From contig NZ_PYFP01000002.1 of NCBI RefSeq assembly GCF_003056055.1, forward strand, positions 496,001 to 560,000: a DNA stretch of 64,000 bases, given 5' to 3'. Source of the stretch: Glaciimonas sp. PCH181 (GTDB lineage Bacteria; Pseudomonadota; Gammaproteobacteria; Burkholderiales; Burkholderiaceae_D). Positions 3,283-11,165 of the stretch are shown here, in pieces. A program made the translations under genes and the position numbers. Each line of letters begins with the position of its first letter. Positions within the stretch are counted from its first letter, which is position 1. The notes beneath the pieces were generated by a model. The model worked only from the letters and a program-made list of their open reading frames with translations. It was not told the origin of the DNA and searched no databases.

Positions 3283-4530
3283 ATGGCGAACTACTACAAC
3301 GAAATCGACCCATACGCTGCTAAATGGCTGCGCAACCTCATCGCCGCTGGACACATTGCGCCCGGCGACGTAGATGAACGGAGTATTGAAGATGTTAGAC
3401 CAGATGACTTACGAGGATATATCCAATGCCACTTTTTCGCTGGAATTGGAGTTTGGTCCCATGCTTTACGTCGCGCAGGATGGGCAGATTCGCGACCAGT
3501 CTGGACGGGTAGTTGTCCGTGCCAGCCTTTCAGCGCGGCAGGTAAAGGAATTGGATTTGCTGACGAGCGGCACCTTTGGCCTGCTTGGAACCACCTCATC
3601 AGCGAGTGCGATCCTCCAATCGTCTTTGGAGAGCAAGTTGCGAGTAAAGATGCAGACGCTTGGGTCGACCTTGTACACACTGACATGGAAGCCTTGGGTT
3701 ACGCCTTCGGGGCGGTCCCGTTTCCGTCTGCGGGCATCGGTGCCCCGCACATCAGAGACAGGAACTATTGGGTGGCCCACGCCAACATGCAACGTCAACA
3801 ATCAGCCAGAAACAGAAAGAGGTCTGCAAACGTTGGCGGGGCAAGCAAGTCTTTCGGGCTGGATCACTCCAACGGTACGGGATTGGAAAGATACGCCGGG
3901 GATGATAGCGCAGAGGGACGGCAAGGATCGCGTGGATCAGTTGCCGAGACAAGCATATTTGGCGGGCTGGCCGACATGCACGGTAACCGATTCCTCGAGG
4001 GGAGTAAAAGACGCGAGACCCTGGGATACGGGCAAGCCGCTGAATCAGATCGTGGCGCTGGCCGGTTGGCCGACGCCATCGAAAGCCAACGGGGACGGCG
4101 GCCAAACGATGACGCATTGCAGTCCATCGGGGCGGAGGTTGGACGGAACAAAATCACAGGTGACACTGAACGGAATAGTCAACTTAGCGGGATGGCCGAC
4201 GCCAATGGCCGGAACACCAGCACAGAAGGGGTACAACGCGTCAGCCAGCACGGATGGGGGCAGAAAAACGGCAGCACTTTGCGGGGCGAACTTAGCGGGA
4301 TCGGGAGTGACAACATCACCCGAATGGAGCGGCCCGGCCCGACTAACGGTTTCTGGCGAGATGTTGACTGGCTTGGATGCAGGGATGGAAAGTGGCGGCC
4401 AGTTGAACCCGGCACATTCCCGCTGGCTCATGGGGCTGCCTCAAGAGTGGGACGACTGCGCGCCTACGGAAACGCTATCAATGCTGAAGCGGCAAAAACT
4501 TTTATCGACACCGTAATGGAGTGGTTATGA
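3283..4530 (+). CDS. Phage DNA (cytosine-5-)-methyltransferase
   Basis: The 415-residue product has the C5-methyltransferase motifs in order: motif [13 protein letters not shown] (51-62, SAM binding), motif [11 protein letters not shown] (77-84) with catalytic Cys80, a motif VI variant EQV (117-119, usually ENV), the RDR of motif VIII (158-160), and motif X YGNAI (395-399). Residues 170-370 form an unusual low-complexity linker with repeated LAD/MAD-x-xGxR units instead of a normal target-recognition domain. That linker is the region where a second frame (3374-4516) also codes. Such enzymes protect phage DNA from host restriction. The ATG at 3283 has a poor RBS; no better in-frame start was seen. 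Confidence 0.85.
3374..4516 (+). CDS. Overprinted protein nested in the methyltransferase gene (+1 frame), GWPTP-repeat family
   Basis: A 380-residue frame lies wholly inside the methyltransferase gene, shifted +1. The product is ordered: an N-terminal part with [18 protein letters not shown] and [20 protein letters not shown], then about five repeats of the type LAGWPTPxAxD ([49 protein letters not shown]), then [20 protein letters not shown] near the C-terminus. From memory, proteins with these features recur in phages and prophages and are usually called hypothetical. The last segment resembles a conserved C-terminal stretch of some C5-methyltransferases. Each GWPTP unit is the same DNA that encodes LADA in the methyltransferase linker. 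Function is unknown; translation might be by internal initiation at 3374 or later. Confidence 0.6.
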
Positions 4531-8360: not shown

Positions 8361-8563
8361 ACCACGCAATGACTTGGGTTAAGCTTACAAAATACGTTGA
8401 CATAACAGGCGACACCGCAGATGCGGTCCGGTCACGCAGAAAAATGGGTAAATGGCTGGACGGCACCCAGTGCAAGATTGTCGACGGATTTTTGTGGGTA
8501 AATTTGGCTGAGGCAGAAAAATGGGTGGAGCAATGGGGAACCAAGCAAGCACTCGCGGCATAG
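8357..8563 (+). CDS. Excisionase-like DNA-binding protein
   Basis: The 68-residue product (WVKLTKYVDITGDTADAVRSRRKMGKW...GFLWVNLAEAEKWVEQW) has the pattern of phage excisionase and related winged-helix proteins. In these a helix-turn-helix (TADAVRSRRKMGKW) is followed by a wing and a W-x-N-x-x-E-A-E-x-W end. It overlaps the integrase gene by 43 bases, the usual xis-int order. It probably directs the integrase toward excision at the adjacent ssrA-derived site. Confidence 0.75.
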   Translation: MNHAMTWVKLTKYVDITGDTADAVRSRRKMGKWLDGTQCKIVDGFLWVNLAEAEKWVEQWGTKQALAA

Positions 8564-9735
8564 AACTGCGAAAAGGAACGGAATCCGAGTCCATTCGAAT
8601 CCGGTTCATGTACAAGGGAATGGAGTGCCGAGAGTCACTAAAACTTGCGCACACCAAGCAGAACATCAACTACGCGATCCGCCTTCGCGGGGAAATCCTC
8701 AATGCTATTGAGCGCGGGAATTTCAATTACGCGGAATATTTTCCCGACTCAACTACGGCTAGCAAATTCGGCCCAGCTCCCGTGAAGGAGACTATCGGCG
8801 AGTTACTGCGCGAACAATTGGATATTGCAAAGAAAACACTATCAGCCAGCACACATCGTGGGTATAAGCAGGTTTGTGACTCGCATCTATTCGATCAGTG
8901 GGATAAAACCCTATTGCGCGATTTGACGGCACCGGCGATTAGGGCATGGATTGCTGGACTGGATTGCAAAATCAAGACTGTCCGCAACATTCTTACCCCA
9001 TTGCGGAATGCCTTGGAGCAGGCGGTTAATGACGACCTTATCGAATTTAATCCATTGGAGCGAGTCAAACTATCAAAGATCATGCCACGAGAAGCGCGCA
9101 AAACTGACTTTGAAGTTGATCCGTTCGATATGAAGGAAATTAGCGCAATCCTGGCGGCGTGCGTCGGTCAAGAGCGAAACGTGTGGCAGCACGCGTTTGC
9201 AACGGGAATGCGAACATCGGAGTTTATCGCACTGGAGTGGCAATCGATTGACTGGGTGAGTTCAAAAATTAGTGTTGATCGCGTCAAAACTCAAGGCATC
9301 ACCAAGACGGATGCCAAAACCGCAGCGGGTAATCGGAAGATAGATATGCTACGCGGCGCATACGACGCCCTGGTTGCGCAAAAGGAATTCACTCAACTAA
9401 AAGGAGGATTGGTATTTGAGGATCCTCGTTATAACGAAGGGTGGGCTGATGACCATGCGCTAGCCAAGCGCTGGCGACGAATCTTAACAAAGGCAGGAGT
9501 CAGGTATCGCAATCCGTACCAGACGCGTCATACCTTCGCTAGTACGTTGCTATCCGCAGGAGCAAACCCTTTATACGTCGCAAAGATGATGGGACACCGC
9601 GACACCGAGATGATTACCCGAAATTATGGTCGTTGGATTGAGCAGGGAACCGAATCGGAAACGCGGAAACAGCTTTTGGAGTTTTTCGCCCAAATGTCGC
9701 CCAAATCAAATGGGATAATCGGCAAAGCGTTATAG
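8521..9735 (+). CDS. Phage tyrosine integrase with DUF3596 arm-binding domain
   Basis: The product has 404 residues. The N-terminus (RGIELRKGTESESIRIRFMYKGMECRESLKL) is the DUF3596-type arm-site binding domain. The middle part (about 85-190) is a SAM-like core-binding domain. The catalytic domain has Arg in ATGMRTSEFIALEW, HTFASTLLSAGANPLYVAKMMGHRD with the His and second Arg box, and the Tyr nucleophile in ITRNYGRW. It recombines the phage with the bacterial site. The gene ends 22 bases before the ssrA-like sequence at 9758, so this is the integrase end of the prophage. An ATG at 8533 is an alternative start. Confidence 0.9.
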   Translation: MGGAMGNQASTRGIELRKGTESESIRIRFMYKGMECRESLKLAHTKQNINYAIRLRGEILNAIERGNFNYAEYFPDSTTASKFGPAPVKETIGELLREQLDIAKKTLSASTHRGYKQVCDSHLFDQWDKTLLRDLTAPAIRAWIAGLDCKIKTVRNILTPLRNALEQAVNDDLIEFNPLERVKLSKIMPREARKTDFEVDPFDMKEISAILAACVGQERNVWQHAFATGMRTSEFIALEWQSIDWVSSKISVDRVKTQGITKTDAKTAAGNRKIDMLRGAYDALVAQKEFTQLKGGLVFEDPRYNEGWADDHALAKRWRRILTKAGVRYRNPYQTRHTFASTLLSAGANPLYVAKMMGHRDTEMITRNYGRWIEQGTESETRKQLLEFFAQMSPKSNGIIGKAL

Positions 9736-9757
9736 GAACAGGCTCGGCGGTGACCGT

Positions 9758-9788
9758 GACGCGGGTTCGATTCCCGCCGCCTCCACCA
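9758..9788 (+). other. Attachment site: displaced 3' end of ssrA (tmRNA)
   Basis: The 31 bases have a T-arm (GCGGG TTCGATT CCCGC), an acceptor 3' strand CGCCTCC, a discriminator A and CCA, as in the 3' end of betaproteobacterial tmRNA. No matching D-arm, anticodon arm or 5' acceptor strand lies upstream; the integrase gene is there instead. It is therefore a displaced gene end acting as attR of the prophage and attL of the next element. The intact ssrA should lie left of the window. A tRNA other than tmRNA is possible but less likely from the sequence. Confidence 0.75.
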
Positions 9789-9820
9789 ATTACGCGTATC
9801 ACAAAGTCCCAAACTGTTCC

Positions 9821-9856
9821 AAAGGCCGCTCCCCTCATAGGGAAGCGGCCTTTTTA
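9821..9856 (+). terminator. Rho-independent terminator after the ssrA end
   Basis: The hairpin AAAGGCCGCTCCC / GGGAAGCGGCCTTTTT has a short CTCATA loop and a T-run. It follows the ssrA-like end directly, so it is probably the original or island-borne tmRNA terminator. A related hairpin with a similar left flank (TGTTC-AAA) follows the second attachment site at 29138. Confidence 0.75.
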
Positions 9857-9902
9857 TTGTCTCGTGAGGTATCATAAAGTATCGCCACATCCCGTGATTT
9901 CA

Positions 9903-9950
9903 GACGGTATGTCTGACGGTATCCCACCACCTTACAAGAGACATACCGTC
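9903..9950 (+). repeat. Arm-type repeats upstream of the island integrase
   Basis: GACGGTATGT at 9903-9912 is followed by GACGGTAT at 9915-9922 and by the inverted copy ACATACCGTC at 9941-9950, which abuts the integrase ATG. The same 10-mer recurs near the other end of the island (29075-29084) and just outside it (29259-29268). This distribution fits integrase arm-binding sites. The inverted pair may also serve as an autoregulatory operator. The role is inferred from position. Confidence 0.55.
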
Positions 9951-11165
9951 ATGCCCCTTACAGACATTGAAATCCGTAATGCTAAAGCAAAGGATAAAGA
10001 CTACAAGCTTTCTGATGAACGAGGTCTTTATCTTCTTATCAATAAAGCAGGAAAATATTGGCGTTATGACTATCGTTTTTCAGGAAAACGCAAAACGTTT
10101 GCGATAGGGGTTTATCCAGACATAACCCTTGCCGTTGCCAGAGTAAAACTTAACGAAGCACGTACCTTAGTCGCAAACGAGATCGATCCTGCGGTAAATA
10201 AGCAGGTGCAAAAGGCGGCAACCGTAGCTAGAGCGGCCAACAGTTTTGAAGTGGTGGCCCGCGAATGGTTTGCAAAATTCTCCAAAGAATGGGCGGAGAG
10301 TCACAGCAGCAAAATTCTCCGCCGCTTAGAGCGAGACATTTTCCCTTGGATTGGTGGCCGCCCAATTGCGGACATTACACCGCCCGAACTTTTAGCCGTG
10401 CTGCGCAGAATTGAAAACCGTGGCGCACTAGAGACAGCGCATCGAGCACATCAAAACTGCAGTCAGGTATTCCGTTACGCAGTAGCGAGCGGACATATGC
10501 AACGCGACTTCTCGCCGGACTTACGCGGAGCGATTCCGCCAGCGAAAGAAACTCACCACCCATCAATTACTGACCTCAAGGGGATAGGTGAACTAATGCG
10601 GGTCATTCAAAGCTACGGTGGCTCATTTGTTACCCAGTGTGCGCTACGGCTCCTTCCTCTCGTTTTTGTTCGTTCGGCAGAACTACGGAAAGCCGAATGG
10701 GTAGAGTTTGATATAGATCGGGCGGAGTGGCGCGTTCCTGCTGAGCGCATGAAAATGAAGGAACAGCATATCGTTCCCCTCTCCTTCCAGGCTGTCGTAA
10801 TCCTGCGGGAGCTTCACCCACTGACGGGTCACGGGAAATATGTTTTCCCGGGCGCAAGGACAAACGGACGTCCAATGAGTGAGAATACCGTCAACGGTGC
10901 GTTACGCCGCTTGGGGTATAGCAAAGAAGAAATGACCGGCCACGGTTTTCGGAGCATGGCATCTACGCATTTAAATGAACAGGGCTGGAATCCAGACGCC
11001 ATCGAACGCCAACTGGCGCATGGTGAGCGCGATCCCGTGCGCGGGGCTTATAACTTTGCTGAATATTTGGGAGAGAGGCGCAATATGATGCAGTCTTGGG
11101 CCGATTTTCTTGACAAACTGGCCAGCGGGGATAAAGTCATGCCAATAGACAACAAAGTTGCTTAG
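9951..11165 (+). CDS. P4-type tyrosine integrase of the island
   Basis: The product has 404 residues from ATG 9951 (MPLTDIEIRNAKAKDKDYKL), the usual N-terminus of P4/IntS integrases with a DUF4102 arm-binding domain (about 1-90). The core-binding domain spans about 100-195. The catalytic domain has Arg in LVFVRSAELRKAEW, the H-x-x-R box in GHGFRSMASTHL, the second His in RQLAHGERD and the Tyr in AYNFAEYL. It lies directly beside the ssrA-type site, the standard position for this family, and belongs to a different integrase family from the prophage enzyme at 8521. The frame extends upstream without a start of similar quality. Confidence 0.93.
   Translation: MPLTDIEIRNAKAKDKDYKLSDERGLYLLINKAGKYWRYDYRFSGKRKTFAIGVYPDITLAVARVKLNEARTLVANEIDPAVNKQVQKAATVARAANSFEVVAREWFAKFSKEWAESHSSKILRRLERDIFPWIGGRPIADITPPELLAVLRRIENRGALETAHRAHQNCSQVFRYAVASGHMQRDFSPDLRGAIPPAKETHHPSITDLKGIGELMRVIQSYGGSFVTQCALRLLPLVFVRSAELRKAEWVEFDIDRAEWRVPAERMKMKEQHIVPLSFQAVVILRELHPLTGHGKYVFPGARTNGRPMSENTVNGALRRLGYSKEEMTGHGFRSMASTHLNEQGWNPDAIERQLAHGERDPVRGAYNFAEYLGERRNMMQSWADFLDKLASGDKVMPIDNKVA

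Follow-up and report, generated by a model that had tools for sequence, protein, structure and literature searches.

A putative two-chain C5-cytosine DNA methyltransferase encoded by overlapping genes in a predicted virus of Glaciimonas sp. PCH181

Organization of the overlapping gene pair

The window analysed here is a stretch of 64,000 nucleotides from Glaciimonas sp. PCH181 (contig NZ_PYFP01000002.1, positions 496,001 to 560,000), and all coordinates without a contig name refer to it. Reading of its open frames places a C5-methyltransferase gene of 415 codons (alpha) at 3283-4530 and, in the +1 frame of alpha, an ORF of 380 codons at 3374-4516; the overlap covers 1143 of the 1248 bases of alpha (92%), and the lengths and coordinates given in a first-pass annotation of this DNA are thereby borne out. 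The features of the locus are as follows, with the evidence for each in brackets.

3283..4530, + strand: alpha, catalytic chain of a C5-cytosine DNA methyltransferase, 415 aa, with motifs I, IV, VI, VIII and X and no motif IX (PF00145, phrog_363, M.HhaI alignment and model)
3380..3383, + strand: GGAG, Shine-Dalgarno-like, 8 nt upstream of the ATG at 3392 (sequence and conservation across loci)
3392..4516, + strand: beta, +1-frame protein of 374 aa, proposed motif IX and target-recognition chain (shuffles, selection, start conservation, phrog_31772 and phrog_1008)
3427..3456, + strand: alpha motif I (sequence, alignment of diverse alphas)
3508..3549, + strand: alpha motif IV with the catalytic Cys (M.HhaI alignment, alignment of alphas)
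3628..3639, + strand: alpha motif VI, GEQV replacing ENV (M.HhaI alignment, alignment of alphas)
3659..3751, + strand: beta, conserved helix-hairpin segment with LTWK, overlying alpha motifs VI-VIII in the +1 frame (conserved among betas; residues 81-120 with pLDDT about 72-84)
3739..3777, + strand: alpha motif VIII (M.HhaI alignment, alignment of alphas)
3773..4330, + strand: beta, five GWPTP modules; the same DNA in alpha is an unconstrained, predicted-disordered linker (selection, module parsing, alpha model)
4400..4456, + strand: beta, candidate motif IX (alignments of betas, HMM of in-frame IX-X segments)
4450..4506, + strand: alpha motif X (alignment of alphas; helix 401-414 in the alpha model)

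The locus lies inside a predicted virus of IMG/VR. Neighbours of the methyltransferase in the window include the gene of an RdgC protein (1171-2070) and two different tyrosine-type integrase genes that adjoin each other (8521-9735 and 9750-11165). The same genome holds a second copy of the overlap (L002, G000:C1:1541541-1542675) with 97% DNA identity. The two copies differ at 57 of 1245 alpha bases; of the 35 changes inside beta, 19 alter alpha only, ten beta only, four both and two neither, and the products differ at 13 of 374 beta residues and 28 of 415 alpha residues.

Alpha is a catalytic methyltransferase chain by several lines of comparison. It matches PF00145 with 45.9 bits (cut-off 22) as well as phrog_363, it aligns with M.HhaI across motifs IV-VIII, and its modelled core resembles that of M.HhaI (Foldseek E 7e-7, 170 alignment columns, rmsd 3.8). 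Residues P79, C80 and Q81 of motif IV, E117 of motif VI and R158 and R160 of motif VIII are invariant in 11 diverse alphas. The motif IX pattern was not found in alpha's own frame in the window, and the segment encoded by the DNA of the GWPTP modules is predicted to be disordered in the alpha model (pLDDT mostly below 50). An ordinary single-chain C5 methyltransferase carries a small DNA-recognising domain between motifs VIII and X. The first-pass annotation had concluded that this methyltransferase lost its target-recognition domain; such a domain is indeed absent from alpha's own frame, but "lost" does not fit, because on the evidence below the segment appears to be present in the +1 frame. 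Against PADLOC, alpha scores best with DruM2, the Druantia cytosine methylase (E 2.4e-15).

Evidence that the +1 frame is a gene

The length of the +1 frame was compared with chance by permuting synonymous codons within alpha, so that protein and codon usage were kept. A +1 run of 380 codons was reached in none of 20,000 shuffles (mean 137, maximum 361), and the +2 frame is ordinary, its 73 codons being reached in 4348 of 20,000. Mean +1 runs of the shuffles range from 90 to 185 codons across the 11 genes tested, and seven of the ten other named genes reach their own +1 length in at most 20 of 2000 shuffles (Paenibacillus phage, 47% GC, 0; K1G, 1; epsilon15, 3; OwlsT2W, 4; N15, 7; Baddon, 16; BcepC6B, 20). 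The counts per 2000 shuffles are 60 for CyLDV1, 241 for MoxR1 and 1089 for Chanagan; since the lengths of MoxR1 and Chanagan are often met by shuffles, a lone high-G+C gene is weak evidence.

Substitution patterns point the same way. In 29 pairs of window-type loci (75-99% nucleotide identity, each locus used once), the three alpha codon positions differ at frequencies of 0.056/0.043/0.285 upstream of beta and 0.182/0.102/0.163 where the frames overlap, a shift of the wobble pattern as expected with both frames constrained. Omega was estimated by class of change, pairs without a recognisable motif VIII or X being skipped. For beta it is 0.31 over the core (bootstrap 0.24-0.46), 0.35 over the linker (0.22-0.62) and 0.32 over IX/X (0.18-0.63), and for alpha 0.13, 0.95 (0.70-1.44) and 0.43 over the same segments; the reference class, changes synonymous in both frames, numbers only 71 in all, so single values are rough, although the overall pattern is not. 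Both frames are thus under purifying selection, the outcome sought by a check that the first-pass annotation had proposed, and in the GWPTP linker selection falls on beta while alpha drifts near neutrally. Among 34 pairs of distant types the codon-position differences shift in the same way, being 0.072/0.030/0.388 outside and 0.206/0.119/0.186 inside beta; omega over linker plus IX is 0.23 for beta and 0.63 for alpha, and over the alpha core beta is weakly constrained (0.81, with 8 changes in the reference class).

The start of beta is conserved as well. Reading from the upstream ATG at 3374 finds no Shine-Dalgarno sequence of its own. We surveyed 133 non-identical window-type loci in which alpha reads VDxRSIx(D/E)V and scored the +1 triplet in the last two codons of this stretch, which is ATG in 120, ACG in 12 and AAG in one. 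The Asp codon there is GAT in 120 of 132 cases, compared with 1320 of 3399 across the same genes; in the start region Arg is AGG in 41% (8% elsewhere) and Ser is AGT in 38% (11% elsewhere), and 94 of the 133 loci have a Shine-Dalgarno-like core. The ATG at 3392 is most likely the beta start, judging from this conservation and from the GGAG 8 nt upstream, and beta is therefore taken as 3392-4516, 374 aa.

Pairing of alpha and beta in phages

The +1 product has no match in Pfam or NCBIfam; it matches phrog_31772 and phrog_1008, both labelled DNA methyltransferase. A profile of beta run against PDB sequences and Pfam found no methyltransferase, only weak unrelated matches. As a single chain beta is modelled poorly (mean pLDDT 55, pTM 0.25), and a structure search with this unreliable model gave no fold match at E 0.001.

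Beta belongs to a conserved family, with 7762 proteins at E 0.001 among 7995 candidates scored, as the earlier statement that such second-frame proteins recur in phages had it; the best non-self identity to the window beta is 62%, well beyond the strict copies to which homologues might have been confined. The pairing of beta with alpha was followed in similarity-ranked samples, each the best 80 of more, the first two of which share some contigs. At all 80 loci fetched with the window beta an alpha lies in the -1 frame, and all 80 loci fetched with diverse alphas have a +1 beta match, so that the broken +1 frame beside an intact alpha, named beforehand as the observation that would count against the overlap, did not appear among these best 80. 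The motif IX pattern is found in beta at 76 and 73 of the 80 loci, respectively. Of the best 80 loci fetched with Firmicute and actinophage betas, 65 pass the pattern test, none with IX in alpha; in the other 15 an alpha was recognised by eye in the -1 frame throughout, ten of them having a variant motif IV (PCQPYS, PCQPHS or PCQPAS) and three a variant IX. No stand-alone beta was seen in the two beta-first samples. Alpha is interrupted in L545 and L567; the C-terminal frames of alpha and beta look swapped in L160, L161 and L573, as after a frameshift or assembly error, and alpha is disturbed in these three loci too.

The pair occurs in phages or prophages of Proteobacteria, Firmicutes, Actinobacteria and one cyanobacterium. 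Named examples are phages N15, epsilon15, BcepC6B, K1G and Cy-LDV1, together with Paenibacillus vB_PlaS-1/A, Microbacterium vB_MoxS-R1 and Mycobacterium OwlsT2W; compared whole, the betas from Paenibacillus, Microbacterium and Mycobacterium phages have 23-27% identity with the window beta. Database records call beta a hypothetical protein or a DNA methyltransferase, or do not name it. Both frames are annotated in the GenBank record of K1G, beta as a "putative Mte8-like protein", and in that of PhiXhv-28, where both are named DNA methyltransferase; neither record gives beta a separate role.

Position of motif IX

The most conserved stretch of beta, LNPxxxRWLMGLPxEW near the C-terminus, matches motif IX, and by eye the C-terminal end of E. 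coli Dcm corresponds to it. In the group of Gordonia phage Baddon and Mycobacterium phage Chanagan this stretch stands in alpha's frame just before motif X (RRLSPAFVEWLMGLPAGHVTDVPGLTRTQQLKALGNGVVP). An HMM was built from 39 single-frame IX-X segments and run on 11 sequences, to which set the E-values apply. It matches the C-terminus of the window beta (domain E 2.8e-6) and of four other betas, five of the six tested, the sixth (L427) giving no match; in Dcm it matches the motif X side only, weakly (0.0076). That an HMM of single-frame segments finds the C-termini of betas suggests that motif IX lies in beta and X in alpha, on the evidence of a short segment recognised by a pattern and a short HMM. 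Two further alpha/+1 pairs, both in a genome of the same genus (G001), have divergent motif IX-like ends: L427 (1456-2313 / 1475-2299) with SERLTIMGFAPDWM and L430 (1447-2196 / 1451-2191) with FEEWMMSWPVLW.

The position of motif IX was surveyed by pattern in three alpha-first samples, each the best 80 of a similarity-ranked list, the second retrieved by queries whose own alpha contains IX; 2, 2 and 7 of the 80 loci lacked the motif IV pattern and were set aside. Motif IX is found only in the +1 ORF in 73/78, 17/78 and 65/73 loci, only in alpha in 1, 45 and 3 (L348, one of the last three, being a spurious pattern match), in both frames in 0, 4 and 0 (the four +1 matches look spurious) and in neither in 4, 12 and 5. 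By these patterns, motif IX in distant groups mostly appears either in alpha or in the +1 ORF. In the 45 loci with IX only in alpha, the +1 ORF exceeds the shuffle mean in 44; in 36 no more than 5 of 100 shuffles attain its length, and 26 contain the PTP module pattern. The +1 ORF is long there although IX sits in alpha, and the remainder of beta thus seems to be of use in itself.

The GWPTP modules

GWPTP-like units of beta start at 3773, 3860, 3968, 4067 and 4193, and a WVTP lies at 3695. The five units announced by the first-pass annotation are thus present, but it had equated each with an LAD unit of the methyltransferase, and alpha reads VAHAN, LDHSN, LADMH, LADAI and MADAN at these places, so only three are LAD/MAD units. 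Nor are they the same DNA repeated, as had been supposed: their pairwise nucleotide identity is 46-58%, compared with 45% for a shuffled pair. Of the idea that one DNA repeat serves both frames, what holds is that the GWPTP frame is selected; the alpha linker is near neutral (omega about 0.95). Repeat DNA as the unit of selection was rejected on both counts, the units being so dissimilar and selection following beta.

From 292 non-identical betas, 241 were parsed into 648 units, and 17 gave none. Single linkage had merged 610 units into one cluster, and the modules were typed by greedy clustering instead. Of the 126 types, 33 hold 524 of the 648 units; 15 of the 16 largest are found at three to five different positions, and there are 185 distinct ordered arrangements. 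Among distant types, 170 of 382 units match the window-type library at E 1e-4 where IX lies in the +1 ORF, and 26 of 102 do so where it lies in alpha, compared with 17 of 484 shuffled controls; the best cross-type matches among those listed reach 89% identity. As read from the protein sequences, the modules of about 35 residues are a shuffled array common to phages of different bacterial phyla. Sharing is clear at the protein level. Recent module swapping at the DNA level was considered and rejected, since among 104 loci no module of at least 90% nucleotide identity is common to a pair with core identity below 0.80; exchange, if recombinational, would thus be old.

The modules behave like cassettes and sit where C5 methyltransferases have their variable region, which suggests a role in target recognition. 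Going further, beta might consist of interchangeable target-recognition cassettes, and phages would mix methylation specificities as they trade these GWPTP modules, each about 35 residues long. The alpha linker would lengthen in step, because the module DNA is also its own. We offer this tentatively, as an idea with somewhat less than an even chance of being right; if it is, the two genes would be an old overlapping pair shared across phyla, with specificity evolving in one frame and the other kept along as a spacer.

A proposed two-chain enzyme and its alternatives

We propose, with a probability of about 0.82, that the two overlapping genes specify the chains of a single C5-cytosine DNA methyltransferase, alpha being catalytic and beta carrying motif IX and probably target recognition. 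Alpha would be the large catalytic domain, in which a floppy linker connects the motif X helix to the part with the SAM site, the motif IV Cys and motifs VI and VIII. Beta would be translated from its own ribosome-binding site inside alpha and supply motif IX and the GWPTP array, the part that stands between VIII and X in a single-chain enzyme. The two chains may then assemble into a complex in which the beta modules contact the target and alpha methylates the cytosine. A likely use for a prophage would be the marking of phage DNA against host restriction.

Three other explanations deserve weighing. The +1 frame could be untranslated and owe its length to base composition and codon bias; composition does often yield long +1 runs, as the shuffles of MoxR1 and Chanagan bear out, but the window and the Paenibacillus phage at 47% GC yield no shuffle of such length, and the codon-position pattern, the omega of beta below 1 and the conserved start contradict it, which makes this account extremely improbable. 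Granting that beta is a real protein, it might have another job, such as anti-restriction or regulation, and merely share its DNA with alpha. The lack of a known fold for the GWPTP modules would suit this idea, which we nevertheless consider unlikely: wherever motif IX stands in the +1 ORF it is missing from alpha, apart from the four doubtful loci with both, and no beta stands alone in the two samples of the best 80.

The two frames could also be joined into one polypeptide by programmed frameshifting, alpha being read through motif VIII, the beta frame for the modules and IX, and alpha again for X. Selection does change hands along the DNA, from alpha in the core to beta in the linker, and the +1 ORF stays long in the group with IX in alpha. 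Such a product needs two shifts, however, and would have no use for the constraint on beta upstream of the modules (omega 0.31, core) or for the internal ATG with its SD-like codons that the window-type loci keep; we regard it as quite improbable. A two-chain enzyme from overlapping genes remains our preferred reading.

Comparison with known methyltransferases

Multispecific single-chain C5 methyltransferases of SPbeta-type phages have several recognition units of about 38 residues between motifs VIII and IX, and the gene for the beta chain of M.EcoHK31I lies in another frame inside its alpha gene. The modules of about 35 residues are comparable with the SPbeta units, although here they would form, together with motif IX, a separate +1-frame chain, and their recognition role is putative. 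M.EcoHK31I (YGGCCR) is a naturally split C5 methyltransferase (PMC3404938, PMC3439449, as far as the accessible parts of both go); the accessible part of PMC3404938 assigns motifs I-VIII and X and the predicted target-recognition domain to its larger chain and only motif IX to the smaller. The window pair resembles it in this distribution of motifs (here by pattern and short HMM) and in that the gene for the second chain lies within that for the first, in a different frame. It differs in that the VIII-X region of alpha is near neutral and the modules are in beta, that the window-type beta is a modular array, and that the pair is found in phages and prophages across several phyla. The best reading is that the window pair would work like M.EcoHK31I, to which it is likened by published description; with an alpha linker of omega 0.95 and pLDDT mostly below 50, we speak of working alike and claim no membership. 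M.AquI, too, is split into two chains within or near the variable region, but IX and X are together on its second chain (PMC3404938, accessible part), whereas in the window pair alpha retains X and the two coding sequences overlap.

Two cloned m5C methyltransferases of relaxed specificity from Paracoccus aminophilus prophages (PMC3925955, accessible part) were considered as alpha/beta pairs and rejected. By coordinates (G126:C1:726427-728409 and 2747340-2749376) they are single-chain, with open frames of 703 and 741 aa, each of which also matches the last part of the PF00145 profile. No such overlap is described in the accessible parts of a Paracoccus virome paper (PMC6536676) and a Serratia phage paper (PMC7556043), the words methyltransferase and methylase are absent from that of PMC8903798 on overlapping genes in viruses, and no report of a phage alpha/beta overlap is among the literature matches listed.

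A two-chain enzyme would assign this family of thousands of proteins a function that can be tested and explain why motif IX seems absent from these methyltransferases; it would also mean that cloning or recoding alpha alone could destroy the enzyme. The locus would further serve as a natural example of a sequence whose two frames can be examined for selection separately, one segment at a time. To our knowledge, overlapping gene pairs that are both long and old have rarely been described from tailed phages and bacteria.

Insertions within the gene pair

Three loci have inserted or additional sequences. In L095 (EBPR siphovirus 2, JF412297; 1501-3996) an intein-like insert interrupts alpha exactly before the catalytic Cys of motif IV, with the borders GSCP/CFPAG...VVHN/CQPFS, and the open run of the beta frame starts near the end of the insert. 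L046 (4042-4572) has a second ORF, HNH-like by eye, within the C-terminal part of alpha from the linker end to motif X. In L010 (2904-4577) the beta frame has an insertion of about 490 bases, HNH/endonuclease VII-like by eye; beta breaks off ahead of the insert, and alpha is open throughout (557 aa).
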